From positions 1 to 47,854 of the forward strand of contig JAFZVU010000080.1 in the NCBI GenBank assembly GCA_017617655.1: a DNA stretch of 47,854 bases. Reading direction: 5' to 3'. Below the pieces are notes generated by a model. That model did no database searches and was not told where the DNA came from. It worked only from the letters and a program-made list of their open reading frames with translations. Of this stretch, positions 1 through 43,763 are shown piece by piece. The DNA comes from Bacteroidales bacterium (GTDB taxonomy: Bacteria > Bacteroidota > Bacteroidia > Bacteroidales > UBA932). The stretch's first letter is position 1; every line of letters starts with the position of its first letter. The position numbers were made by a program, and so were the translations under genes.

Positions 1-36
1 CTCCCGCCGTCCCTGAAATGCGGACGGCGGGAGCAC
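1..36 (-). repeat. Solo copy of the GTGCTCC palindromic repeat (locus A)
   Basis: Read on the minus strand this begins GTGCTCC and forms a perfect 12-bp stem (CTCCCGCCGTCC at 1-12 against GGACGGCGGGAG at 22-33) with a 9-nt loop. It resembles one unit of the 52-bp tandem repeats at 5329 and 12153 but lies in the opposite orientation, and the window edge cuts off whatever lies beyond it. No T-run follows on the plus strand, so it is not an obvious terminator. Its membership in the family is inferred from the shared GTGCTCC start and stem position. Confidence 0.5.
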
Positions 37-2859: not shown

Positions 2860-4137
2860 CTACAAAAACTGCATATTCTTCACGATATCTTCTGTCATCG
2901 ACAAGGGAACGCCGCAGTCTTTCGCAATCCTGGGCCAACTTGATGCCGCATCGCATATCTGGTCAATAATGTCATCGGCCTCCTTGATGTCATTGGCTGC
3001 GGCGCAGGCCAGAAGGTCTGCCCGGGAGATTTTATCAAATTTCCCATTCACAGACATCTGGTGCATAGACGTCCAGCCGCCTTGCGGATTAAAAGCATAA
3101 CCCATATCGTATGCTGGAGATAGGCGCCACTGCCCATCTTCTCCCATAAGGAAAGAGATGTTTTTTGTATGATCATCCTGATTGCGCACAACAACGTTGA
3201 AAACCATACGCCGGAACAATTCGGTAACGGCTGAATAGGGGAGCCTCAGAGCGCGCATTACGCCGAAGGCCTGCTCATAGCTATATCCACGCAGAAGGCG
3301 GAAGTCATAATGAGCCAACGCACACAAGGTCTGCATGTGGACTTTTCTTCCGTTGTTGCGGTCAAACCGTTTTGCAAGGAAATGCGCTCTGCCATTTTCT
3401 TCTATCAGCATGCATTCCGACATTTCGATGCCGCAATCTTTTGCCAGCTGATAAAAAGAGTATTCCAAACGACCGTAATTTTCAGTCTCACGGAAGCCGG
3501 CTTCAGCTGAAACACCGTCCAGCTTAATTAGATAGTAGTCAAAACCTGCAGGCGCTTCAACTTGTCCGGACCGGACTTCTCCGGTTGCCTTGTTATATGC
3601 AATTATTGCCTTTGCTCGCTGACCTCCTGCTGATGTTCCAAGCCGCAAGATCTCTGCTATAGCCGCCTTTTTTTCATCATTCAGGTTCACTCCAAATGCA
3701 GCCTTCTGGGTAAGGGCGTCCCGTGCGACTTCCACCAGAGAATTAATCTCAAACAACTGTTGAGAATTATAATCCATCTCTATCGCGGGTTCAAATTCAA
3801 GAGCACCCATACAACGTTTCCCCAGGAAACAAAGCGTTTCCACCGGATTGCTGCTCGTATGTCCGGTAAGAGAAAGCCATTGATCGAATAAAGCGCGTCC
3901 GTAACTGTCAGGCAGAGCATCGGCCAACATTCCCGGCAAGCCCATGAATGTATCTCTGTTGAGTCCGGCAAACGAATAAATGCGCCCTTCCCGTACCGGC
4001 ATCATGAGTGGTGACGGCTCCAGACCTAATCCGACAAAGCTGTGGTCATATTCAAAACGCACCACTTCATATCGCTGGTCCCAGCGGAATGTTCCCACAA
4101 GGTGGTCGAACATATTAACTCGTGCGACATCTATCAT
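2860..4137 (-). CDS. hipA: HipA-family serine/threonine kinase toxin
   Basis: A 425-residue protein close in length to E. coli HipA (about 440). The N-terminal subdomain runs to about residue 120. GTSAGGQRAKA at 167-177 corresponds to the nucleotide-binding or autophosphorylated loop. The catalytic loop is NQDDHTKN at 319-326, with Asp321 as likely catalytic base and Asn326 as metal ligand, and PAYD with Asp344 serves as the DFG-like metal site. All key residues are present, so it should be active. In the family, HipA phosphorylates aminoacyl-tRNA synthetases such as GltX and slows growth; the substrate here is unknown. It overlaps the upstream antitoxin gene by 4 bp (ATGA), a sign of translational coupling. 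Confidence 0.9.
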   Translation of the reverse strand: MIDVARVNMFDHLVGTFRWDQRYEVVRFEYDHSFVGLGLEPSPLMMPVREGRIYSFAGLNRDTFMGLPGMLADALPDSYGRALFDQWLSLTGHTSSNPVETLCFLGKRCMGALEFEPAIEMDYNSQQLFEINSLVEVARDALTQKAAFGVNLNDEKKAAIAEILRLGTSAGGQRAKAIIAYNKATGEVRSGQVEAPAGFDYYLIKLDGVSAEAGFRETENYGRLEYSFYQLAKDCGIEMSECMLIEENGRAHFLAKRFDRNNGRKVHMQTLCALAHYDFRLLRGYSYEQAFGVMRALRLPYSAVTELFRRMVFNVVVRNQDDHTKNISFLMGEDGQWRLSPAYDMGYAFNPQGGWTSMHQMSVNGKFDKISRADLLACAAANDIKEADDIIDQICDAASSWPRIAKDCGVPLSMTEDIVKNMQFL

Positions 4138-4451
4138 ATCTTCCTTGTTGCTCTTTTGCGTTGATGTGCTGATGCAGAATGCACCAGTTCGTAGTATTCG
4201 CTAGGACTCAGCTGCTCCTCCTCCATCAGAGGCTGGAGGACATCCAGCTTCCCCAATGAACGGAGAATCCGAAGGAACGAGTCGAATGAGCGTATTTCGC
4301 CCTTTTCAATTTTCTTCAGCGAAGACAGAGATACGCAGGTCTCCTCGGCCAGGGTCTGCTGCGTAATGTTCTGTTTAAGGCGAACAGACTTCAATCTCTC
4401 TCCTATTCTGGCGATAATTGCCGAGTCGGCAAGCATATATATATCTTCCAT
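4134..4451 (-). CDS. hipB: HipB-like helix-turn-helix antitoxin
   Basis: A 105-residue Xre/Cro-type DNA-binding protein. The helix-turn-helix lies at about residues 17-55, with RLKQNITQQTLAEETCVSLS followed by LKKIEKGE, the usual recognition-helix tail. In HipBA pairs the antitoxin binds the toxin and represses its own promoter. It is the first gene of the two-gene operon. An in-frame ATG at codon 6 is an alternative start. The pair sits between the first sigma module and the duplicated lipoproteins, in a region visibly richer in AT than the housekeeping genes nearby, which fits horizontal arrival. Confidence 0.87.
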   Translation of the reverse strand: MEDIYMLADSAIIARIGERLKSVRLKQNITQQTLAEETCVSLSSLKKIEKGEIRSFDSFLRILRSLGKLDVLQPLMEEEQLSPSEYYELVHSASAHQRKRATRKI

Positions 4452-4487: not shown

Positions 4488-4556
4488 TATATAATAGTTT
4501 AAAATTAAAACTTTTTAATTTCCTCACTGATCCAACAATTCTAACAATCGCACGCA

Positions 4557-4580
4557 GTATTTTACCGAAGCCGCAGTTAT
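4557..4580 (+). promoter_or_regulatory. Candidate ECF sigma promoter/operator, site 2
   Basis: GTATTTT (4557-4563), 9 nt, then GCAGTTAT (4573-4580), 33 nt before the lipoprotein start at 4614. It is the same motif and spacing as before both sigma genes, which suggests that the sigma factor drives this lipoprotein. Confidence 0.55.
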
Positions 4581-4613
4581 TATGGTAGAAAAACAAGTAA
4601 ATTAGCAGTGGAC

Positions 4614-5135
4614 ATGAAAAGGATACTGACTCTTTCCCTCTATTTGATTGCTGCGACGATGGCTTTGTCCTGCAGCAAGGATCTGTTTACGCCGGACGGG
4701 TATCTCATTGACAAGTCGTTGGTCGCCAAGACCACGATACAACCAAAGGACGAGATCCAAGCACGCCAGGACGATTTTGAGACCACGATCGTTGATTTCC
4801 GTGACGGTACTGTCCTAAGGACCTTCGAGGTGGAAGGACAGTCACATCTTATAGCGCACAGCACGGGCAAAATGGTTTACGATGCCTTCTGGCTCTTCAT
4901 GAACTTCGACTATATCGACAACATGAAAGTCGGAGATGTCCTGAAACCGACCTATTGCTGGTTTTCATTGATATTTTCTAGTTCCAGTCTTGCTTCAACT
5001 TATACATATGACGGAAAAATAACCCTGGCCGCCAAAGGTGACGACTACGTCGTATTCTATTTCGACAAAGTCACTTTCACGACAGAGTTTTATGTATATG
5101 TAATGGACGGGTATCTCCGCTGCAATCTTAAGTAA
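4614..5135 (+). CDS. Small secreted lipoprotein, inverted-duplicate copy 1
   Basis: A 173-residue protein with a lipoprotein signal (MKRILTLSLYLIAATMALSC, Cys20). The mature part carries FETTIVDFRDGTVLRTFEVEGQSHL, then strands ending FTTEFYVYVMDGYLRCNLK; it looks like a small all-beta domain. I do not recognise a family. Near its N-terminus it holds 22 residues (YLIDKSL to IQAR) that the copy at 5665 lacks; the two signal peptides are identical. I chose the ATG at 4614 over a GTG two codons upstream because the signal then starts properly. The candidate ECF promoter motif precedes it, and the hairpin leader and tandem palindromes follow its stop. Confidence 0.8.
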   Translation: MKRILTLSLYLIAATMALSCSKDLFTPDGYLIDKSLVAKTTIQPKDEIQARQDDFETTIVDFRDGTVLRTFEVEGQSHLIAHSTGKMVYDAFWLFMNFDYIDNMKVGDVLKPTYCWFSLIFSSSSLASTYTYDGKITLAAKGDDYVVFYFDKVTFTTEFYVYVMDGYLRCNLK

Positions 5136-5197
5136 GTAGCATAATTCAACAGTTCTTACCGTCTCTGAAACCTATATTACTGTAACCGCAAATATCC

Positions 5198-5328
5198 CCG
5201 TGGTATGGCTATATCGGCATAAACTCCCATACTGCGGAGTGTTTTTGTGGGTATTTCCGGGGAAACCGCTCCTTGGTATGTGACCTGCGGGCTATACTCG
5301 CATATCGTGGAATCTGGCACCCTCCCAA
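5198..5328 (+). ncRNA. Conserved structured leader of repeat array B
   Basis: This stretch matches 12022-12152 with about 16 differences over 126 positions (counted by eye), with no length change. It opens with an 11-bp stem (5198-5208 with 5227-5237) around an 18-nt loop. Two pairs that are Watson-Crick at the second locus are G-U wobbles here, which supports selection on RNA structure. Both copies run straight into tandem 52-bp palindromes and then a terminator. A small non-coding RNA or structured 3' UTR of the preceding lipoprotein gene are both possible. Changes in the longest open frame are mostly non-synonymous, which argues against a peptide. Confidence 0.5.
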
Positions 5329-5573
5329 GTGCTCCTACCGGTCCAAGTGATGGACCGGAGGGCGCGTTTTACACCCCAAAGTGCTCCTACCGGTCCAAAC
5401 GGTGGACCGGAGGGCGCGTTTTACACCCCAAAGTGCTTCTACCGGTCCAAGTTGTGGACCGGAGGGCGCGTTTTGCCCCTCAAAGTGCTCCTACCGGTCC
5501 AGATGATGGACCGGAGGGCGCGTTTTACCCCTCAAAGTGCTCCTACCGGTCCAAGTTGTGGACCGGAGGGCGC
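5329..5573 (+). repeat. Tandem 52-bp palindromic repeat array B (five copies)
   Basis: Copies start at 5329, 5381, 5433, 5485 and 5537; the last is cut short after GGAGGGCGC. Each reads GTGCTCCTACCGGTCC, a 7-nt loop, then GGACCGGAGGGCGC, followed (except in copy 5) by a T-rich tail. The inner 7-bp arms are invariant, while the loops vary (AAGTGAT, AAACGGT, AAGTTGT, AGATGAT, AAGTTGT). The 52-bp period is not a multiple of three, so successive copies change reading frame and the open frames across them are accidental. There are no unique spacers, so this is not a CRISPR array. Confidence 0.9.
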
Positions 5574-5606
5574 AGCTTCCGCCGGATGCGCGGCCGGCGG
5601 CCAAAC

Positions 5607-5642
5607 AAAAAAGGGAAGCACCGCGGAGTGCTTCCCTTTTTT
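5607..5642. terminator. Strong bidirectional intrinsic terminator
   Basis: A perfect 15-bp stem with a 6-nt loop (AAGGGAAGCAC, CGCGGA, GTGCTTCCCTT) with A-runs and T-runs at its outer ends, so it can stop transcription both from array B and from the minus-strand lipoprotein gene ending at 5665. Its core is nearly the same as that of the terminator at 12519-12553, which closes the second array. Confidence 0.88.
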
Positions 5643-5664
5643 GTTAAAAGCCTATTATGCGGTT

Positions 5665-6120
5665 TTACTTAAGCGCGCAGCGGAGATACCCATCCATCAC
5701 ATATACATAGTAGTAAGTCGTGAATGTGACTTTGTCGAAATAGAATACGACGTAGTCGTCACCTTTGGCGGCCAGGGTTATTTTTCCGTCATAAGTGTCG
5801 GCCCAGGCTCTGTCAGTACCAGATAATAACAAACGGAACGAACAAAAAGACGGGTTCAGGGTGTCTCCAACTTTCATATTATCTATGTAGTCGAAGTATA
5901 TGATGAGATAAAAATAATCCCAATCTATCTTGCCGGCACTGTGCGCCATAAGATGTGACTGTCCTTCCACCTCGAAGGTCCTTAGGACAGTACCGTCACG
6001 GAAATCAACGATTGTGGTCTCAAAATCGTCCTGGCCATCCGGCGTAAACAAATCCTTGCTGCACGACAAAGCCATCGTTGCAGCAATCAAATAGAGGGAA
6101 AGAGTGAGTATCCTTTTCAT
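5665..6120 (-). CDS. Small secreted lipoprotein, inverted-duplicate copy 2
   Basis: A 151-residue paralogue of 4614-5135 in opposite orientation, with an identical 20-residue lipoprotein signal and the same FETTIVDFRDGTV core. It lacks the 22-residue segment after PDG, an in-frame loss or an insertion in the other copy. The middle (KIDWDYFYLIIYFDY, SGTDRAWADT) has diverged more than either end. The reading frame is intact, so it is probably expressed. The upstream motif on the minus strand (6154-6177) is the same as for copy 1. Function unknown. Confidence 0.8.
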   Translation of the reverse strand: MKRILTLSLYLIAATMALSCSKDLFTPDGQDDFETTIVDFRDGTVLRTFEVEGQSHLMAHSAGKIDWDYFYLIIYFDYIDNMKVGDTLNPSFCSFRLLLSGTDRAWADTYDGKITLAAKGDDYVVFYFDKVTFTTYYYVYVMDGYLRCALK

Positions 6121-6153
6121 GTCCACTGCTAATTTACTTGTTTTTCTACCATA

Positions 6154-6177
6154 ATAACTGCGGCTTCGGTAAAATAC
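6154..6177 (-). promoter_or_regulatory. Candidate ECF sigma promoter/operator, site 3 (minus strand)
   Basis: On the minus strand, GTATTTT (6177-6171), 9 nt, then GCAGTTAT (6161-6154), 33 nt before the start of the lipoprotein at 6120. It lies within the inverted duplication, so its sequence is not independent of site 2. Confidence 0.5.
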
Positions 6178-6243
6178 TGCGTGCGATTGTTAGAATTGTT
6201 GGATCAGTGCGGAAATTGAAAAGTTATTGTGAACTTAGACGCA

Positions 6244-6267
6244 GTATTTTCGGATTATAGCAGTTAT
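6244..6267 (+). promoter_or_regulatory. Candidate ECF sigma promoter/operator, site 4
   Basis: GTATTTT (6244-6250), 9 nt, then GCAGTTAT (6260-6267), 8 nt before the ATG of the second sigma gene. Its layout is nearly the same as site 1. Together with site 3 it makes the interval 6121-6275 a divergent control region. Confidence 0.55.
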
Positions 6268-6275
6268 ATGATTAT

Positions 6276-6833
6276 ATGACCGAACAGGAACTGGCCAGGC
6301 TCTGTGCACAGGGCGTCGATGCTGCGCGCAAGGAGCTGTACTTGACGTACGGCTCGCGGATGCGCGCGCTTTGCCGTCGCTATACTGCCAATGCGGCCGA
6401 AGCGGATGACCTGATGCAGGATGCCTTCATCAAGATATTCCGTGTCATCGACCGTTTTGTCTGGACGCAACCCGGTTCGCTTTATTCCTGGATGTCACGG
6501 GTGGCCATCAATATGGCTTTTGACTCAGCCAAGTTGAAGAAGAGGCTGGCCAGCGAGATAATGGATGTGGAGGATTTGGTTGATGTAGCAACGGACGAAC
6601 CCGGTCGGGAGGAAACAGAGGCCATCTCTTTTGATGTGCTCAAAGATATGATCGAGGCCCTGCCGGAAGGCTACCGGACCGTCTTCAAACTCTACTGCAT
6701 AGACAATCTTTCTCACAAGGAGATAGCTTCGCTTCTCGGAATCAAAGAAAAGAGTTCTTCGGCCAATTTGGCAAGGGCCCGCGCCTCGCTTGCCGTCGCC
6801 ATCAAAAAATATTTTGAAAACAACACGCAGTAA
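6276..6833 (+). CDS. ECF-type RNA polymerase sigma factor (copy 2)
   Basis: A 185-residue ECF sigma factor, paralogue of 106-660. Region 2 (about 22-87) has AEADDLMQDAFIKIFRVI and SLYSWM; region 4 (about 128-180) has LPEGYRTVFKLY and the helix-turn-helix SHKEIASLLGI. The N-terminal 50 residues nearly match copy 1, while the stretch joining regions 2 and 4 (EIMDVEDLVDVATDEP) differs. The recognition helix is almost unchanged between copies, so both may read the same promoter, in line with the shared upstream motif. Its barrel-type partner follows after 39 bp. Confidence 0.93.
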   Translation: MTEQELARLCAQGVDAARKELYLTYGSRMRALCRRYTANAAEADDLMQDAFIKIFRVIDRFVWTQPGSLYSWMSRVAINMAFDSAKLKKRLASEIMDVEDLVDVATDEPGREETEAISFDVLKDMIEALPEGYRTVFKLYCIDNLSHKEIASLLGIKEKSSSANLARARASLAVAIKKYFENNTQ

Positions 6834-6872
6834 TTCATAGTAATCATAGTTATAAATACGCAAGGAGGAAAC

Positions 6873-8129
6873 ATGGAGCATAAAAATGATAATGATTGGA
6901 TAGAGGTCATCAAGGAAAAATACCTCTTGGATGCCGGAGCTCCGCCAGAGGCCGGATGGGATGCCATCAACCGAAGCCTGCACCGCCCCATATTGCTGCG
7001 CCGCGCTGCCATTGCCGCCTCCTTCCTGCTGCCAATCGCAGTCGGGCTGCTTATCTGGAGTCCCTGGCAGAAGACTCATCCTTCCTCTGGGGACATTATC
7101 GCTGTTTCCGAAACAACTGCCCCCACAGTTTTTCCTTCCGACACGAATGTCGAAGATCCAATAGATGCCGTGCAGACAGCCAGTCCGGCCAGCAAGCCCG
7201 TGGCAGTCCAGTCAACCCACAAAGCTGCGCAAGCCATCATGCCGGCCCAACCAGCCGGAGAACATACTGCCACCTTTGATAGCACAACCAGCCACCAGCA
7301 GCTTCCTTCGGGAGATAATAACGCAAAACAACCCACATCCGGACAACAGACCGAAGAACCGTCAGGCTCCGAACAACCCACCTACCGCCAGTCTCTGGAC
7401 GATCCCTTCGCAGACCTGCTGGCCGATGCCGAACCGGAGCAACAGAAAAAGCATCGTATTTCTGTCAGCCTTGGTGCCGGCACAAAACCAGTACAGCAAG
7501 ATAAAGGAATCCCGGCGCAAGCGGCTCCTTATTTTGCAGGACTGACATATCTGAATTGCGCCCCAGGTGAAACTCCTTCCGTCAAGTCCAGTGTATCTAA
7601 CACCAGTAAGTATTATTATCATTATATGGCCAGCAATTATGGGCAATTACCTGTTTCTCCCACTGAAATAGGGCAGTATCATCACGACTTCCCTATTACT
7701 GCCGGACTGCAGGTACGACTCGAGTTGTTGCCATGGCTTGGCATCGGGAGCGGTGTAGAATACTCATATCTTCATTCCGTTGCGTCATCAATCATGGCCA
7801 ACGTTGATCAACGTCTTCATTTCATTGGCATACCGCTGCGGTTCGATGCACGGCTCTGGTCAAACCATCATTGGGAGGTCTACGCCGGCCTGGGTGGCAA
7901 GGCAGAAAAATGCATTTCCGCAAGTTATGGAAATCTAAAATGCGAGGAGCCCCGCCTCCAATGGTCTGTAGAGGCCTTTGGCGGCGTACAATACCGGATA
8001 TGGAACAATACGAGTCTCTATCTCCAGCCGGAACTGTCTTGGTACTTGACCCAAACAGATCTTGTCACTTACCGCACAGAACATCCTTTTGGCGTCTCCT
8101 TGAACGCCGGCCTTCGATTCGATTTTTGA
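6873..8129 (+). CDS. Dual membrane-spanning anti-sigma-like protein with C-terminal outer-membrane beta-barrel (copy 2)
   Basis: A 418-residue paralogue of 698-2059 with the same parts: a cytoplasmic N-terminus with DW, AGW and LHR (1-44); one membrane helix (about 45-62) ending SPWQ; a Thr/Pro/Gln/Ser-rich linker (about 65-190) unlike that of copy 1; and a beta-barrel (about 193-418) ending LRFDF. The tip and the barrel are conserved between copies, whereas the periplasmic linker and the segment after the first strands differ, as expected if linker length and surface loops tune the signal. A strong AAGGAGG (6862-6868) precedes the ATG. The anti-sigma role is inferred from gene order and topology. 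Confidence 0.78.
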   Translation: MEHKNDNDWIEVIKEKYLLDAGAPPEAGWDAINRSLHRPILLRRAAIAASFLLPIAVGLLIWSPWQKTHPSSGDIIAVSETTAPTVFPSDTNVEDPIDAVQTASPASKPVAVQSTHKAAQAIMPAQPAGEHTATFDSTTSHQQLPSGDNNAKQPTSGQQTEEPSGSEQPTYRQSLDDPFADLLADAEPEQQKKHRISVSLGAGTKPVQQDKGIPAQAAPYFAGLTYLNCAPGETPSVKSSVSNTSKYYYHYMASNYGQLPVSPTEIGQYHHDFPITAGLQVRLELLPWLGIGSGVEYSYLHSVASSIMANVDQRLHFIGIPLRFDARLWSNHHWEVYAGLGGKAEKCISASYGNLKCEEPRLQWSVEAFGGVQYRIWNNTSLYLQPELSWYLTQTDLVTYRTEHPFGVSLNAGLRFDF

Positions 8130-8143
8130 TTCTTATTATAACC

Positions 8144-9667
8144 ATGAAAAAGCATACCACGATAATTTTTTTGATAATTGCTCTTGTCGGTTGCCAAAGC
8201 AAACTCCAAGTTTCGGACTTTGTACCAGCAGAAATGGCCGTTGTTAATGATATTGTCACCAAGTCGTCTGCTCCGAAAGTAGACAGTACAGTAACATTCC
8301 TTACAGAAACGAATTTCATGGCATGGTCAAAAATCGGTAGTTTGGAGGAACGTTTTCAAGCATGTGATGTCCCCGAAAGCATCACAACCCGGTTATCAAC
8401 AAAAGCATTGGTTGAATCAATTGCCAAATACCCGCTTAATTATTTGATATTCGCTTATGACAACCCTCTGACCGCAGTACAAATTATTATTGACTATAGC
8501 CACTTGCACCAAGAACTTCAGTCCAGAGATGATGCAATATCAGAGTTGACAGATTTATATTCGAAAAGCACAATAATAACTGATGATAACGTGGATTCAC
8601 AGAACTCTCGTATAGTTCTTTCGTATAAAGATGAGATGTTCTTAGGGTACCTTCTGTTATTTGAAATAACTACGAAATCTATTGACATCAATAGTGGCCA
8701 AATCCTTCTAAAGGTAGTTGAAGATAAAATACTAGAGGAGTCTTCTCAAAAAGAGATATTCAGTGATTTTTTTATGACTCCTTTAGTTGCTATTAAGAAT
8801 TGTCTTCAGAATAGTTCTCCATCTGGGTATAGAACACCAACAACAACGATTTATACTCCTTTGGGGCACGAATTAGTAGGTTACCTTTATCCTGAGATGT
8901 CTCAATCAGATATAGATAGCATTACTCGCGAAGCTGCCATGCAATATTCTGATGCTACTGTTTTGAGACCAGCATCAAATGTATACAATTGCCATAGCTA
9001 TGCTTGGTATTCCGATGATCCTTCAAATAATATCTGGTTGGAGAGTCATTTAAATCCATACACCTCACAGTTGCATTATTATTGGACGTATGATTATTAT
9101 GAAGAGTGGTACGAATATAACTCAACAAAAGCGACATATATGCAATCTTCTCCTCTACAATCACACTCTGCCCGTATTACCCCATCAGGAGATTATATTT
9201 CTAAGTGGAGGAATGGGCCATTAATGCAGCATAGTAAAACAGATTGTCCATATTTTACCACAGAAATGCACTACTATAAAACAAGATATTTCCCATCTAA
9301 TTATATAAACTTTACTGGCACGACGGTAGTATTGCCGGGCACAACAAATTATTACTCTATCTCAAATATCGATGAAGAGGCCGATCCTTATGATTATGAT
9401 GTGACGGCTTCATTCATAGTTAATCCCAGCCAAACTCCCTTTACGTTTACTACCATCAACAAAGCAACGCAGACGTATAGTCTGCAATGCAACGATTACG
9501 GTGCTTATAAAATACGTGCAGAATATGAAAGACAGCCAGGCTATTTGTTCTATGGAGAATTGCTTGTAATCTGTGTAGGCAGTAGGACAATGCAACGGAT
9601 TCAAGACGAAAATGTGACTGACTTAGAAAGATTTCTCCGAGACAACTGGGATCATATATCAGAATAA
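8144..9667 (+). CDS. Large lipoprotein with a possible Cys/His hydrolase site
   Basis: A 507-residue protein with a lipoprotein signal (MKKHTTIIFLIIALVGC, Cys17). I do not recognise a named family. The central region holds NCHSYAWY with Cys283, then HSARI with His341, then YISKWRNGPLMQH; an NCH-YAW motif followed by an H-A/SKW block is reminiscent of papain-like Cys/His folds (NlpC/P60-type), so a hydrolase is a plausible guess. The N-terminal half (about 20-240) is helical. I chose the ATG at 8144, 14 nt after the barrel gene stop, over upstream in-frame codons because it starts the signal peptide. The gene is visibly AT-rich compared with the sigma and barrel genes before it, suggesting a different origin. 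Confidence 0.75.
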   Translation: MKKHTTIIFLIIALVGCQSKLQVSDFVPAEMAVVNDIVTKSSAPKVDSTVTFLTETNFMAWSKIGSLEERFQACDVPESITTRLSTKALVESIAKYPLNYLIFAYDNPLTAVQIIIDYSHLHQELQSRDDAISELTDLYSKSTIITDDNVDSQNSRIVLSYKDEMFLGYLLLFEITTKSIDINSGQILLKVVEDKILEESSQKEIFSDFFMTPLVAIKNCLQNSSPSGYRTPTTTIYTPLGHELVGYLYPEMSQSDIDSITREAAMQYSDATVLRPASNVYNCHSYAWYSDDPSNNIWLESHLNPYTSQLHYYWTYDYYEEWYEYNSTKATYMQSSPLQSHSARITPSGDYISKWRNGPLMQHSKTDCPYFTTEMHYYKTRYFPSNYINFTGTTVVLPGTTNYYSISNIDEEADPYDYDVTASFIVNPSQTPFTFTTINKATQTYSLQCNDYGAYKIRAEYERQPGYLFYGELLVICVGSRTMQRIQDENVTDLERFLRDNWDHISE

Positions 9668-9699
9668 TATGTGTGCAAAATTTAATATCATCTGACGCA

Positions 9700-9723
9700 G
9701 TCATTTGTGGGTTGTGCAGTTCT
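9700..9723 (+). promoter_or_regulatory. Candidate ECF sigma promoter/operator, site 5 (degenerate)
   Basis: GTCATTT, 9 nt, GCAGTTCT: the same spacing as sites 1-4, with two changes in the first box and one in the second. It also keeps the GCAG preceding each box 19 nt apart (9697 and 9716). It lies 39 nt before the C10 peptidase gene at 9763. Confidence 0.4.
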
Positions 9724-9762
9724 TTATATAGAAAAAGATTTCAACCCAAAAGAATAAACGCT

Positions 9763-11238
9763 ATGAAAAATCTGTTTAATTATCTCGCGGTATTGATATG
9801 CATAGTAATGCTGCTGTTTTCGTGCAACAGGATTGACACTGTCGGTTTTGATAACGAATCAGTTGCAACTAAAGACATGACCAATGCACACAGCCTCAAT
9901 GTCACTCATCAGGAGGCACAGGGAGTTGCAGACATGTTCTTGCGTTCTGAGGCTGGTAGTGATATTTTCCAGACAAAGAGTGCAAATGCGAAGCGTGTCA
10001 GTTCATCATCCACTGTCAGAGAAGACGGACAGAACCTGATGTATGTTTTCAATTATGAAGGTGGAGGTTTTGTCATCGTAAGTGCAACAAGGAACTATTA
10101 CCCTGTGCTGGCATACTCAGACAAGAATTCTTTTGTGCTGCAAGAAGACATGGGTCCTGTGGATGTCTGGCTTGACGAAACGATAGTTAGCATCAAGAAC
10201 AGTAGTTCGCTCGATGAAGCAACAAAAACCCAGATGCAGAACATGTGGGCAAGCTATGCCGGCACCTACGTTGACCCGACGCAGGAGATTCTCGCCACCC
10301 GCAGACCCCAAACCCGCAGCACCGGCGAGGATTATTGCTGGGATCGGATTGACGCGTTGCAAGCTTTATATGGCAGTCAAGGGTGGACTTTCCTTCCTGT
10401 CTCATTTGTGGAACAGCTATTCGAGGATGCTGGGCTATCGGATTATTATGATGATATATGCTACTCTGCCACACAAAATCACTCGGCGTTAAATGAAACA
10501 GTCATAGGATATAAAAATACTCCATATTATACCACCCCCGTGGGTCCACTACTTGATACATATTGCTGGTATCAAAGGTCTCCGTTCAACGATTTATGTC
10601 CACCTAATTGTCCTGCAGGATGTGCTGTAATCGCAGCTGCACAGATAGTAAAATACTATGAGCACGCCCCTACATATCCTCTTCAATGGGGTACGACGAC
10701 ATTTTATTGGAGCGAGATAGCCGACTATCCAGATAATTCCTCAACAACACGTCAGCCTCATTTTATCCAATATATAGCAAGTTATATCCCGGGTATTGAT
10801 TATGCGAATTATGATAGCGGTGCAACTTCAAATCAGATTAAAAATGGCATGCAGAATTTGGGATATACCGCCTCATTGCAAAGCCATAACGCTTCATCTG
10901 CTTTCAGTCAGATTTCACAAGGAGGAAAACCCGTGTTGATGTTAGGAGTTAATTCAGATGGAGGTGGACATGCATGGGTTTGTGATGGAGTCAAGCAGTA
11001 TATATACAACTACATTACTTTCTTTACAGAAAACCAACCCTATGGTGCCGGCACTTTCACTCAAGGAATGTATACAATAAGTAACCCGGGAACCGAGGGC
11101 GGCATAGTCATACCCTATTATCATATGAAATTTGGTGCAGAAGACGGAGACTATGATGATTGGTATATTGATAATGCTTTTTCATCAGGTTGTGACTACC
11201 AATACTCTAGACAAGATATTTTCATTTCATATCCATAA
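9763..11238 (+). CDS. Secreted C10 family (streptopain-like) cysteine peptidase lipoprotein
   Basis: A 491-residue precursor with a lipoprotein signal ending LLFSC (Cys18). Residues about 40-150 fit a Spi-type inhibitory prodomain (THQEAQGVADMFL, then GGGFVIVSATRNYYPVLAYSD). The C10 catalytic domain follows: CPAGCAVIAAAQIVKYY with nucleophile Cys287 and GGGHAWVCDGV with His403. In this family the zymogen matures by cleavage of the prodomain and degrades host or competitor proteins, or other cell-surface proteins. I chose the ATG at 9763 because the upstream in-frame ATG would bury the signal peptide. It is AT-rich like its neighbours and probably forms an operon with the lipoprotein at 11273. 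Confidence 0.9.
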   Translation: MKNLFNYLAVLICIVMLLFSCNRIDTVGFDNESVATKDMTNAHSLNVTHQEAQGVADMFLRSEAGSDIFQTKSANAKRVSSSSTVREDGQNLMYVFNYEGGGFVIVSATRNYYPVLAYSDKNSFVLQEDMGPVDVWLDETIVSIKNSSSLDEATKTQMQNMWASYAGTYVDPTQEILATRRPQTRSTGEDYCWDRIDALQALYGSQGWTFLPVSFVEQLFEDAGLSDYYDDICYSATQNHSALNETVIGYKNTPYYTTPVGPLLDTYCWYQRSPFNDLCPPNCPAGCAVIAAAQIVKYYEHAPTYPLQWGTTTFYWSEIADYPDNSSTTRQPHFIQYIASYIPGIDYANYDSGATSNQIKNGMQNLGYTASLQSHNASSAFSQISQGGKPVLMLGVNSDGGGHAWVCDGVKQYIYNYITFFTENQPYGAGTFTQGMYTISNPGTEGGIVIPYYHMKFGAEDGDYDDWYIDNAFSSGCDYQYSRQDIFISYP

Positions 11239-11272
11239 AAACAAATGCATCTTAATAACAATACATATTGTC

Positions 11273-12016
11273 ATGAAAACGATATTTCATATACTATTGT
11301 CATTTATAATTGTTTGTTCTTTGTCTTCATGTGGTCATGAATTGGGTGGTCCTTCTCAGGAAGGAGAATTCTCGTTCTCTTTAGACTCACTTATTAGAAC
11401 CGGAAATTATGAATTCAACAATACTTTTGGCCCTGCGTGGAAATACACGCTTGCAATAAGTTTCAAAGATACGGAAGGGAAAGATTTAGTTGCACCGTTG
11501 GCCGAAGAGCAATGGGACAGTAATCCCGACGCATCTCATTGGGCGGAATATATTAATCCAGATAAATTACATTTAGATGTCATCTATTCAAACCCGCCAG
11601 ATTGTTTTGATAATGCCACATATACTTACAACAAAACGAACCCAGAGGCTATTCTTCCTGGAGATCATGTCAAGTATTGCACAGCATCTCAATATGGTCA
11701 ACCCGATTCGCCGTGGTACGTTGTACATAGTGAGGCTACGTATATAAATACTTGGGGAGAAGACGTTCAAGACCTAACCCTTAATATAACATGTCCCACT
11801 ATCTTCGGCGATGACGAAATCCATGAGTTTGCAACTTACTGGGATGAAGGTGCAGAGAAAAGGGGAGAAGAATGGTTGGCTATGTGCACAAAACTTGTAT
11901 ATGAAGGACATGAGTATATTCCAGAAAAAAAAGTAAGAGTAGAGCACTTCGAAAATTTCGGAAAAGCTTGGAATACTGTTTTTGTGGATTATCGAATCGA
12001 CATCATCCTAAAATAA
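11273..12016 (+). CDS. Secreted lipoprotein, family shared with 2085-2774
   Basis: A 247-residue protein with a lipoprotein signal (MKTIFHILLSFIIVCSLSSC, Cys20). The mature part starts with a short Ser/Glu-rich linker, then ISFKDTEGKDLVAPLAEEQW, INPDKLHLDV and, near the end, TYWDEGAEKRGEEWLAMC and YRIDIILK. Those blocks align with the lipoprotein at 2085 and support distant paralogy. It lies 34 bp after the C10 peptidase gene and could be its partner or inhibitor, though nothing in the sequence proves this. I chose the ATG at 11273 because the signal peptide starts there. The structured leader at 12022 begins 5 bp after its stop. Confidence 0.78.
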   Translation: MKTIFHILLSFIIVCSLSSCGHELGGPSQEGEFSFSLDSLIRTGNYEFNNTFGPAWKYTLAISFKDTEGKDLVAPLAEEQWDSNPDASHWAEYINPDKLHLDVIYSNPPDCFDNATYTYNKTNPEAILPGDHVKYCTASQYGQPDSPWYVVHSEATYINTWGEDVQDLTLNITCPTIFGDDEIHEFATYWDEGAEKRGEEWLAMCTKLVYEGHEYIPEKKVRVEHFENFGKAWNTVFVDYRIDIILK

Positions 12017-12021
12017 CTGTT

Positions 12022-12152
12022 CCGCAGTATGGCTATATCGGCGTAGACCCCCATACTGCGGAGTGCATTTGTGCGTATTTGCCGGAAAACAGCTCCTTGG
12101 TATGTAACCAACGGACTATACTCGCATACCGTGGAAGCTGGCACCCTCCCAA
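12022..12152 (+). ncRNA. Conserved structured leader of repeat array C
   Basis: Second copy of the 5198-5328 module. It opens with an 11-bp perfect stem, CCGCAGTATGG (12022-12032) with CCATACTGCGG (12051-12061), around an 18-nt loop of the same length as at the first locus. It begins 5 bp after the stop of a lipoprotein gene and runs directly into array C. Confidence 0.5.
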
Positions 12153-12302
12153 ATGCTCCTACCGTCCCCGAAGATGGGACGATAGGCGCGTTTTCCCCCC
12201 CAAAGTGCTCCTACCGTCCCCGAAGATGGGACGATAGGCGCGTTTTCCCCCCCAAAGTGCTCCTACCGTCCCCGAAGATGGGACGATAGGCGCGTTTTCC
12301 CC
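12153..12302 (+). repeat. Tandem 52-bp palindromic repeat array C (three copies)
   Basis: Copies start at 12153, 12205 and 12257. Each reads (G/A)TGCTCCTACCGTCCC, a 7-nt loop, then GGGACGATAGGCGCG and a TTTTCCCC tail. The period is 52 bp as in array B, but the stem is CGTCCC/GGGACG instead of CCGGTCC/GGACCGG: both arms changed together. The three copies are nearly the same, suggesting recent expansion or homogenisation. Confidence 0.9.
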
Positions 12303-12332
12303 TACACCTGCCGAAACCGTCTTTGAAGCACT

Positions 12333-12518
12333 GCCACGGTCAGCACATTTCCGCCCGTTCTTGCTGACCAAGGCGGCAAAAGCGCCAGATTTGCGAAAAA
12401 ACGTGCCACGGTCAGCACATTTCCGGCTGTTCTTGCTGACCAAGGCGGCAAAAGCACCAGATTTGCAGAAAAACGTGCCACGGTCAGCACATTTCCGGCT
12501 GTTCTTGCTGACCAAGGC
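12333..12518 (+). repeat. Tandem 72-bp repeat array (two full copies and a partial third)
   Basis: Units start GCCACGGTCAGCAC at 12333, 12405 and 12477. Each holds the inverted pair GGTCAGCA and TGCTGACC, 16 nt apart, then an AAAGCGCCAGATTTGC stretch. The third copy stops at the terminator. The period is a multiple of three, so a long minus-strand open frame appears (12159-12734), but it overlaps rpsC and mirrors the repeats, so I do not call it a gene. The sequence is unrelated to the 52-bp family. Confidence 0.88.
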
Positions 12519-12553
12519 AAAAAAAAGGAAGCACCGCGAAGTGCTTCCTTTTT
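12519..12553. terminator. Bidirectional intrinsic terminator after rpsC
   Basis: An 11-bp stem (AAAGGAAGCAC with GTGCTTCCTTT), 6-nt loop CGCGAA, A-run on one side and T-run on the other. It ends the ribosomal operon on the minus strand and the repeat array on the plus strand. Its core closely matches the terminator at 5607-5642. Confidence 0.9.
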
Positions 12554-12573: not shown

Positions 12574-13338
12574 TTATGCTTCCCTGCGTGAATCACGACG
12601 CGGGCCGCGACGGTCACCGCCGCGACGGTCACCGCCACGACGCTCACGACGCTCGCCGCCACGATCTGAGCTGGCTGCTGCTGATGCAGACACGCCTGCG
12701 TTCGGGCTGAGGTCACGTTTGCCGTAAACTTCACCGTTGCAGATCCACACTTTCACTCCGAGAACGCCGACCTTGGTGTGAGCCTCGGCCAGAGCGTAGT
12801 CGATATCAGCGCGGAAGGTGTGAAGAGGAGTACGACCCTCTTTGTAGAGCTCGCTGCGAGCCATTTCGGCGCCGCCCAGACGACCGCTGATGAGAACCTT
12901 GATGCCTTCTGCACCTACCCTCATGGTAGAAGCGATGGCCATCTTGATGGCACGGCGGTATGAAACGCGGCCCTCAACCTGACCGGCAATGTTGTTGGCA
13001 ACGATGTTGGCGTCAACCTCGGGGCGCTTAACCTCGAAGATGTTGATCTGGACATCCTTACCGCAAACCTTGCGGAGTTCTTCTTTCAGCTTGTCTACTT
13101 CCTGACCGCCCTTGCCGATTATGAAGCCCGGACGAGCGGTGTGGATAGTAACAGTGATGACCTTCAAAGTGCGCTCGATGACGATCTTGCTCAGGCTGGC
13201 CTTTGCCAGACGGGCGTTGAGGTACTCGCGGATCTTTGCGTCATCCTGGATTCTTTCAGGGTAATTACCACACCAGTTGGAGTCCCAACCACGGATAATA
13301 CCAATACGGTTGCTGATAGGATTAGTTTTTTGTCCCAT
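12574..13338 (-). CDS. rpsC: 30S ribosomal protein S3
   Basis: A 254-residue ribosomal protein of the 30S head near the mRNA entry site. It begins [22 protein letters not shown]; the KH domain with [15 protein letters not shown] lies at about residues 70-85, and the C-terminal domain with [12 protein letters not shown] at about 150-160. The tail after about 218 is unusually rich in Arg, Gly, Asp and Ser (RGGD-type blocks). It is the last gene of this ribosomal cluster and ends at a terminator; rplP and rpmC, which normally follow, are absent. Confidence 0.97.
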
Positions 13339-43713: not shown

Positions 43714-43763
43714 GTGCGCCTACCGGTCCAAAGCGTGGACCGGAGGGAGCGTTTTACCCTAAG
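43714..43763 (+). repeat. Solo copy of the GTGCTCC palindromic repeat (locus D)
   Basis: One unit in the orientation of arrays B and C: GTGCGCCTACCGGTCC, 7-nt loop AAAGCGT, GGACCGGAGGGAGCG and TTTTACCC. The inner stem matches array B exactly. It lies between the tsf terminator and the end of mutS2, without the hairpin leader. Confidence 0.85.

Follow-up and report, generated by a model that had tools for sequence, protein, structure and literature searches.

Palindromic repeats of two classes at two loci of a Bacteroidales contig are probably atypical REP-like elements associated with long tyrosine transposases

Repetitive extragenic palindromic (REP) elements that have their own REP-associated tyrosine transposase (RAYT), fixed spacings and tandem arrays are already known. 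Transposases of this TnpA_REP type recognize a folded single strand, cleave it through a 5'-phosphotyrosine and carry out strand transfer (PMC8266576, PMC6006769 and PMC3116915). The doublets of Pseudomonas fluorescens SBW25 show fixed spacings of 71 and 110 bp, along with evenly spaced tandem arrays (PMC3116915), and TnpA_Y1 subclass 2.6, from Bacteroidetes (Bertels group 5), is flanked by "atypical secondary structures" that have copies elsewhere in the genome (PMC6006769). Here we describe two loci, A and B, in a 47,854-nt stretch of DNA from a Bacteroidales bacterium (assembly GCA_017617655.1, contig JAFZVU010000080.1, positions 1 to 47,854; hereafter the window), which an earlier note, made from the letters alone, had put forward as a candidate structured RNA family comprising a leader hairpin, an array and a terminator. 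We favor, with a probability of roughly 0.88, the reading that atypical, RAYT-associated REP-like palindromes of two classes have accumulated at both loci, beside ordinary genes; the "mobile palindrome" that the earlier note listed among its options is the one that the evidence supports. The 52-nt class, which makes up arrays A and B, would belong to a clade of ~290–330-aa HUH RAYTs of the Y1 type (clade 1), and the 72-nt class, which includes the leaders and the array at 12332–12520, to a second, divergent clade of ~320–350 aa (clade 2).

The two loci (5196–5645 and 12020–12553) share a plan of leader, palindromic units with a 52-nt period and terminator, and the segments that begin at 5198 and 12022 are alike over 281 nt with 79% identity. 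The repeats were described by two covariance models, R1 for the 52-nt class (built from 21 pairs) and R2 for the leader class, with loci A and B in the training sets. The parts of the loci are as follows:

5196..5313, plus strand: leader-class element of locus A, two palindromes 73 nt apart with a spacer; R2 129.5 bits (training copy)
5329..5573, minus strand: array A, five 52-nt units with stem CCGGTCC/GGACCGG
5604..5645, unstranded: bidirectional terminator of locus A with an 18-bp stem, outside the repeat and collinear with the post-rpsC terminator in G022
12020..12137, plus strand: leader-class element of locus B, two palindromes 73 nt apart; R2 132.6 bits (training copy)
12153..12293, minus strand: array B, three identical 52-nt units with stem CGTCCC/GGGACG
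12332..12520, plus strand: 72-nt tandem array of the leader's class, two full units and a shortened third; palindrome GGTCAGCA..TGCTGACC
12522..12553, unstranded: terminator after rpsC, outside the repeat; similar terminator without array in G004, G007 and G019

The strand of array A is stated in the orientation of the RAYT flanks, and the 73-nt spacing of the leaders was measured by hand from their stems. The exact 52-bp period (five units in one array, three in the other), the stem sequences of both arrays and an 11-bp hairpin with an 18-nt loop had all been described before and are present in the sequence; what had been read as this hairpin followed by about 90 nt of conserved sequence is in fact a pair of palindromes with their spacer, and the variable loops ascribed to array B, if this meant the locus at 12022, are those of the array at 5198, the units at 12153–12293 being identical including their loops. 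A third repeat, the 72-bp units at 12332–12520, was missing from that description; it is matched by R2 with an E-value of 1e-7 and is therefore assigned to the leader's class. The upstream open reading frame (ORF) ends 61 nt before locus A and 4 nt before locus B, and neither of the two upstream genes has a Pfam match at E ≤ 0.01.

Each class flanks RAYT genes of the matching clade. At contig C35 of the related genome G022 (G000 denotes the window's own genome, which is 83.9% complete, and other G numbers related genomes), a RAYT gene is preceded by a CCGGTCC/GGACCGG pair and followed, 15 nt after its stop codon, by a CGTCCC/GGGACG pair; these are the two stems of arrays A and B. Array A matches the upstream pair at 74–76% over 85–89 nt and array B the downstream pair at 73–74% over 88–91 nt, with additional short matches of array B (22–44 nt) to the flanks of a RAYT in G039:C6. 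Relatives of the G022:C35 protein are found in 129 of 299 family genomes at E ≤ 1e-20, and Pfam Y1_Tnp is matched at E ≤ 0.001 in 21 of 26 genus genomes (17 above the cut-off), with the clade-1 RAYT passing at 28.7 against 23 bits. Clade-1 transposases have ~290–330 aa and WG and YVQMN in their consensus; their sequence profile retrieves from the PDB, at best E-values of 0.2–0.71, five IS200-type transposases and one unrelated chain. Around 94 distinct transposase ORFs, hairpin density reaches 4.4 and 5.9 per kb in the flanks versus 1.8 per kb in the genes. Two motif counts were set aside: a GTATG..CATAC stem motif in RAYT flanks (4 loci) was too loose for counting, and a CGTCCC motif at 11 of the 94 RAYT loci, having no control of its own, was not used as evidence. 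Upstream of the RAYT gene at locus L114 (G311:C42), five palindromes stand at a strict 52-nt period, the unit number being that of array A.

The leader class is found with the second clade at G001:C171, where two elements outside the R2 training set lie in one orientation (1606–1723 and 2905–3022), upstream of a 352-aa ORF (1641–2696) and across its 3' end. The last 83 nt of this ORF overlap element 1606–1723 (L255/L271), which supplies the last residues of its own transposase; in the structure model, the corresponding residues 330–352 form an end of low confidence. Against Pfam the ORF gives nothing noteworthy, and its best NCBIfam match is REP-associated tyrosine transposase, at 17.3 bits versus a cut-off of 80; 10 of 19 family members match that model at E ≤ 0.05, and the clade-2 profile aligns to the clade-1 profile with 99.6% probability. 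When compared with the PDB, the clade-2 sequence profile finds nothing at E ≤ 5. The AlphaFold model of the G001:C171 protein (mean pLDDT 87.8, pTM 0.87) has a single PDB match at E ≤ 0.001, a complex of a REP-associated tyrosine transposase with a REP hairpin (4er8; E 2.7e-4, TM-score 0.66 by target length, 10% identity), and the next matches are IS200/IS605 transposases. Both HUH histidines and the tyrosine at the expected place are invariant, so that sequence and predicted structure together point to the HUH motif and catalytic tyrosine in a Y1 fold that characterize a TnpA_REP protein. Clade-2 proteins have ~320–350 aa, that of G001 carrying HYH and YVLRQ, and relatives of the 352-aa protein occur at E ≤ 1e-10 in 89 of 299 family genomes as well as in records labelled Bacteroidales or Bacteroidia, for most of which the source is the gut of ruminants or horses (80/82 loci kept).

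When five parts of the window were compared with 15 transposase-bearing loci, the one match of the 72-nt array was G000:C87:41631-42608, in both flanks of the RAYT gene there (76–78% over 92–110 nt and 93% over 41 nt). For array A the only match was G022:C35; array B matched this locus too and, briefly, G039:C6. Because plain BLAST is weak for the leaders, their link to a RAYT rests mainly on the R2 matches and the flank sequences. A TnpA_REP gene flanked by cognate repeats that have copies elsewhere, the arrangement known as a REPtron, is found at G022:C35, G039:C6, G001:C171 and G000:C87. Another RAYT clade (L065), with a 72-nt pair in one flank, was rejected as partner of the leader and replaced by the 352-aa clade; it is absent from the own genome at E ≤ 1e-30.

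One spacing between palindromes is strongly preferred per clade. Among similar hairpin pairs in the flanks of 94 RAYTs, 59/102 fall in the 52-nt bin, compared with 0/10 in the ORF control and 0/1 in shuffles, and a pair at 46–58 nt is seen at 41/72 loci of the main clade (clade 1) and at 0/22 others. For clade 2, a smaller set has hairpins 66–80 nt apart at 17/39 loci, with 24/43 pairs in the 72-nt bin, and a larger one has a pair at 70–75 nt at 34/77 loci, with 41/93 pairs at exactly 72 nt; pairs at 70–74 nt amount to 51/93, versus 1/15 in the ORF control and 0/7 in shuffles. In a third RAYT clade (L050 G022:C20, L058 G023:C25 and L075 G000:C37), flanking palindromes stand 84 nt apart at 3/3 loci, and in a further one (L074, L076 and L062, with a DTHVHF motif in L074 and L076) both flanks carry longer, near-identical multi-hairpin repeats. 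It is conceivable, if on balance doubtful, that two transposase clades read a phased pair and not a single hairpin, at 52 and 72 nt (84 nt in the third clade), or ~5, 7 and 8 helical turns, across genera and unrelated stems. If so, the transposase would measure a fixed distance between palindromes on one face of the DNA, for which dimerization or its long C-terminal part might account, and the stem sequence would be fully replaceable while the ruler is kept, unlike the single-stranded, single-hairpin recognition of E. coli.

Both classes are dispersed in the own genome and in relatives, as imperfect, mostly intergenic palindromes of ~20–65 nt in several copies, which is the dispersal expected of REPs. 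The window scores 83 bits with R1 and 133 bits with R2 (both loci being training copies); among copies not used for training, scores go up to 91 bits with R1 (C42) and 87 bits with R2 (C28). Locus B, searched as DNA against the own genome, has six matches, half of them in the window; of the three on other contigs, C43 and C62 each hold a pair and C87 two adjacent pairs, the spacer between palindromes being conserved. A DNA match is found in 6 of 99 genomes searched, own included. At E ≤ 0.01, R1 matches 19 of 26 genus genomes (own included) and at least seven own-genome contigs, counting that of the window, whereas R2, for which about three genomes are expected by chance at this threshold, matches 13 of 299 genomes of the family, with eight places in the own one; R2 matches below 1e-10 are confined to G000, G001, G014 and G022, and most of the other nine genomes lie near the threshold. 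Among the matches listed, the own-genome contigs outside that of the window are C87, C42, C62, C43, C27 and C31 for R1 and C28, C41, C10, C78, C5 and C52 for R2, with no overlap. Nine of 14 own-genome places overlap no ORF of at least 100 aa. The leader plan also occurs in G001 and in G014, where the contig end cuts the element. Used as a single DNA query in the genus, the leader gives many short matches, with a double palindrome only in L026 and L027 of 12 loci inspected; its matches at C41 and C78 were later confirmed by R2. Two further copies of the 52-nt class lie in the window itself:

43714..43751, unstranded: single 52-nt-class unit between a terminator-like hairpin and an ORF end; R1 45.3 bits, E 2e-8
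1..36, unstranded: half of a 52-nt-class unit, at the contig end; R1 29.3 bits, E 6e-5

Repeats such as these two may break assemblies.

The number of units differs between species at two orthologous intergenic sites, next to genes that we take, by eye, to be an ABC-type ATPase gene and rpsC at the end of a ribosomal gene run. Following the same stop codon of the ATPase gene, a pair is present in G000 (C62) and a single palindrome, which shares the outer ends of that pair, in G007; G014 and G004 carry no copy there. Downstream of rpsC, G022 has one pair, G004, G007 and G019 the terminator only, and the window a leader, three units and the 72-nt array; in the other genomes inspected at rpsC, other genes follow. 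Because G004, G007 and G019 have the post-rpsC terminator without an array, the terminator is not part of the repeat unit; the terminators of the two loci are near-identical, as had been noted, but their inclusion in the element does not hold. The gene upstream of locus A (4551–5135) shares 83% identity with the gene beside rpsC in G022, and 5477–5640 (last units, GC-rich stretch and terminator) is collinear with the rpsC side of G022 at 75% identity. Locus A is thus related to the rpsC-side segment, a duplication of the lipoprotein-gene/rpsC-side segment explains the common plan of the two loci, which are 6.8 kb apart, and both terminators probably descend from the one after rpsC. In the window, the ribosomal gene run (12574–13338) ends after rpsC, with an S3 protein that has an Arg/Gly/Asp-rich C-terminal tail; the genus genomes inspected (L158–L176) show rpsC, then a terminator and varying genes. 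In L176 (G020:C92), the same rpsC-side gap holds a palindrome of a different repeat class, CCCTTGCGTAAATTTACGCAAGGG, which resembles those flanking the RAYT of L049 (G006:C26).

The same comparisons bear on the idea that the arrays are domesticated REP elements, kept as binding sites for a chromosomal protein, whether gyrase, one like IHF or a different nucleoid protein. Gyrase, IHF and Pol I are known to bind REPs (PMC6006769), arrays have grown at two loci, and their fixed spacing is, by arithmetic only, close to whole helical turns; however, presence and unit number vary between close species, and spacing within one host family goes with the transposase clade, which together leave this explanation very improbable.

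Still less probable is a structured RNA, be it a small RNA or a 3'-untranslated-region element, in which leader hairpin, array and terminator form one transcript. The loci do lie after genes and before terminators, and their stems change in step, as the earlier note had observed: over 21 aligned pairs, the covariation score is 0.276, versus 0.168 in shuffles and 0.049–0.130 in slid controls, and 55 cells are changed on both sides, versus 27.3 in shuffles. A covariance search of relatives, as proposed there, found copies in the genus and family. DNA palindromes recognized as single strands predict the same co-variation, however, and pairing of arms across units is supported as well as pairing within them (0.286), as expected because the four arms are related. 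Were the element an RNA made from one strand, G·U should be better tolerated than A·C; stem departures in 21 copies of the 52-nt class comprise 23 G·T and 32 A·C cells (binomial p 0.28), therefore there is no preference for an RNA strand, and the two hairpin pairs that are Watson–Crick at 12022 and G·T at 5198, although real, carry no weight as a sign of RNA. In addition, leader and array recur apart, on different contigs, the terminator goes with rpsC in relatives without an array, and the repeats flank HUH transposase genes, so that the single family once proposed comes apart into separate elements. A check against Rfam, also suggested in the earlier note, yields only tRNA above gathering thresholds in the window, and the best hit of a permissive search, on the terminator, has 27.2 bits versus a gathering score of 51. 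Nor are these the identical repeats with unique spacers of a CRISPR array, the spacers being conserved between units and loci. Least probable of all is a miniature transposon with leader and array as one cargo of an ordinary DDE transposase: 5198–5478 and 12022–12302 do resemble each other end to end, but leader and array occur separately elsewhere, duplication of the neighboring gene and terminator explains the likeness, and the flank transposases found are HUH enzymes, no search having been aimed at DDE transposases.

Several observations weigh against the assignment to RAYT-associated repeats. The canonical GT[AG]G tetranucleotide, which REPs have at the 5' foot of the hairpin, is absent, the feet being, by eye, mostly GTGC (21 copies of the 52-nt class) and TTCC or CCCC (4 leader-class copies), and the pairs are not the inverted REPs of a REPIN, with 14 direct, 6 inverted and 1 tie among 21 pairs of the 52-nt class. 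Four proteins from both clades score 34.3, 24.3, 19.5 and 17.3 bits against the RAYT equivalog NF047646 of NCBIfam, below its 80 bits. The own genome yielded six RAYT genes (C44, C88, C37, C62, C87 and C78), and the stems of arrays A or B do not occur in the flanks inspected, the downstream flank of C44 being cut by the contig end; these arrays may therefore be orphaned. Among the 15 loci compared, leader A matches only G001:C171, and weakly (BLAST E 0.005), and leader B none; the stem type of 12332–12520 has been located in the window and in the C87 flanks. The hairpin-pair detector finds a pair at just 41/72 and 34/77 RAYT loci and reports none in either window leader, probably owing to the short core, 6 bp, of their second palindrome. 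Five of the 14 own-genome places (A, C78, C5, C87 and C62) overlap an ORF of at least 100 aa, that at C62 having an ATG just after the element. Two of five covariation measures are weaker, with the observed value reached in 19/500 shuffles for pairs changed on both sides and in 170/500 for further types.

If the repeats are mobilized by RAYTs, as sequence and analogy suggest, the transposase would recognize a folded single strand, probably at replication forks, and would cut and rejoin it at the foot of the palindrome, presumably by the phosphotyrosine cleavage and strand transfer published for TnpA_REP. Pairs of elements could thereby be moved or copied into gaps between genes, where tandem arrays may then grow by unequal exchange or slippage between units, and a gap with one element may take others. 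Effects on host mRNA ends, if any, would be secondary.

The surroundings of the two loci include inverted copies of a lipoprotein-type gene on either side of array A (5004–5135 and 5665–5796, 132-nt arms that are 91% complementary), with further inverted arms of 80 nt (74%). Elsewhere in the window, a HipA-type kinase gene with a small helix-turn-helix gene upstream (2860–4451; HipA_C, Couple_hipA and HTH_3) forms a toxin–antitoxin-like pair, and a C10-family peptidase with a Spi inhibitor domain (9673–11238) has, further upstream, a gene for an extracytoplasmic function (ECF) sigma factor (6276–6833).

In place of a candidate RNA family that is most likely false, these results offer testable REP/RAYT pairs in gut Bacteroidales, with three stem types that can each be assigned to a transposase locus, sharp clade-specific spacings and natural alleles of 0, 1 and 2 units at one orthologous site. 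They also warn that arrays of co-varying palindromes beside terminators can mimic structured RNA, though probably mobile DNA. In the open-licence literature, no paper was found that joins tyrosine transposases, palindromic repeats and Bacteroidales.

Like the REP elements, bacterial interspersed mosaic elements and REPtrons of TnpA_REP in E. coli and Pseudomonas, the repeats described here are short, imperfect intergenic palindromes that occur in pairs and tandem arrays and flank their own HUH-Y transposase gene; unlike them, they have no GT[AG]G foot, their pairs lean toward direct orientation, and their transposases have ~290–350 aa with long C-terminal parts. With subclass 2.6 they share the phylum (the named relatives being Bacteroidales records), atypical palindromes without GT[AG]G and dispersed copies, but that subclass has a median of 179 aa with WQ and YIH[QN]NP (PMC6006769), compared with ~290–350 aa and WG/YVQMN (clade 1) or HYH/YVLRQ (clade 2 protein of G001) here. 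The "double palindromic TIRs" (terminal inverted repeats) of TIRYTs and TIRtrons likewise stand on both sides of a transposase gene, some of them in repeat families, although the examples named in the excerpt come from other host groups, namely Pseudomonas, Stenotrophomonas and Acidobacteria (PMC3733652). Palindromes containing CGTC are also known as CGTC-tagged REPs, in which, as excerpted, CGTC is a terminal tag and there is no transposase (PMC3733652), whereas here CGTCC belongs to the stem and the repeats flank RAYT genes. By eye and without a tree, the lengths and motifs of both clades fit no row of the TnpA_Y1 subclass table as excerpted from PMC6006769, and the pair of long Bacteroidales RAYT clades, with their strong 52- or 72-nt ruler, seems, from searches of open-licence papers, to be new among systems of this kind.

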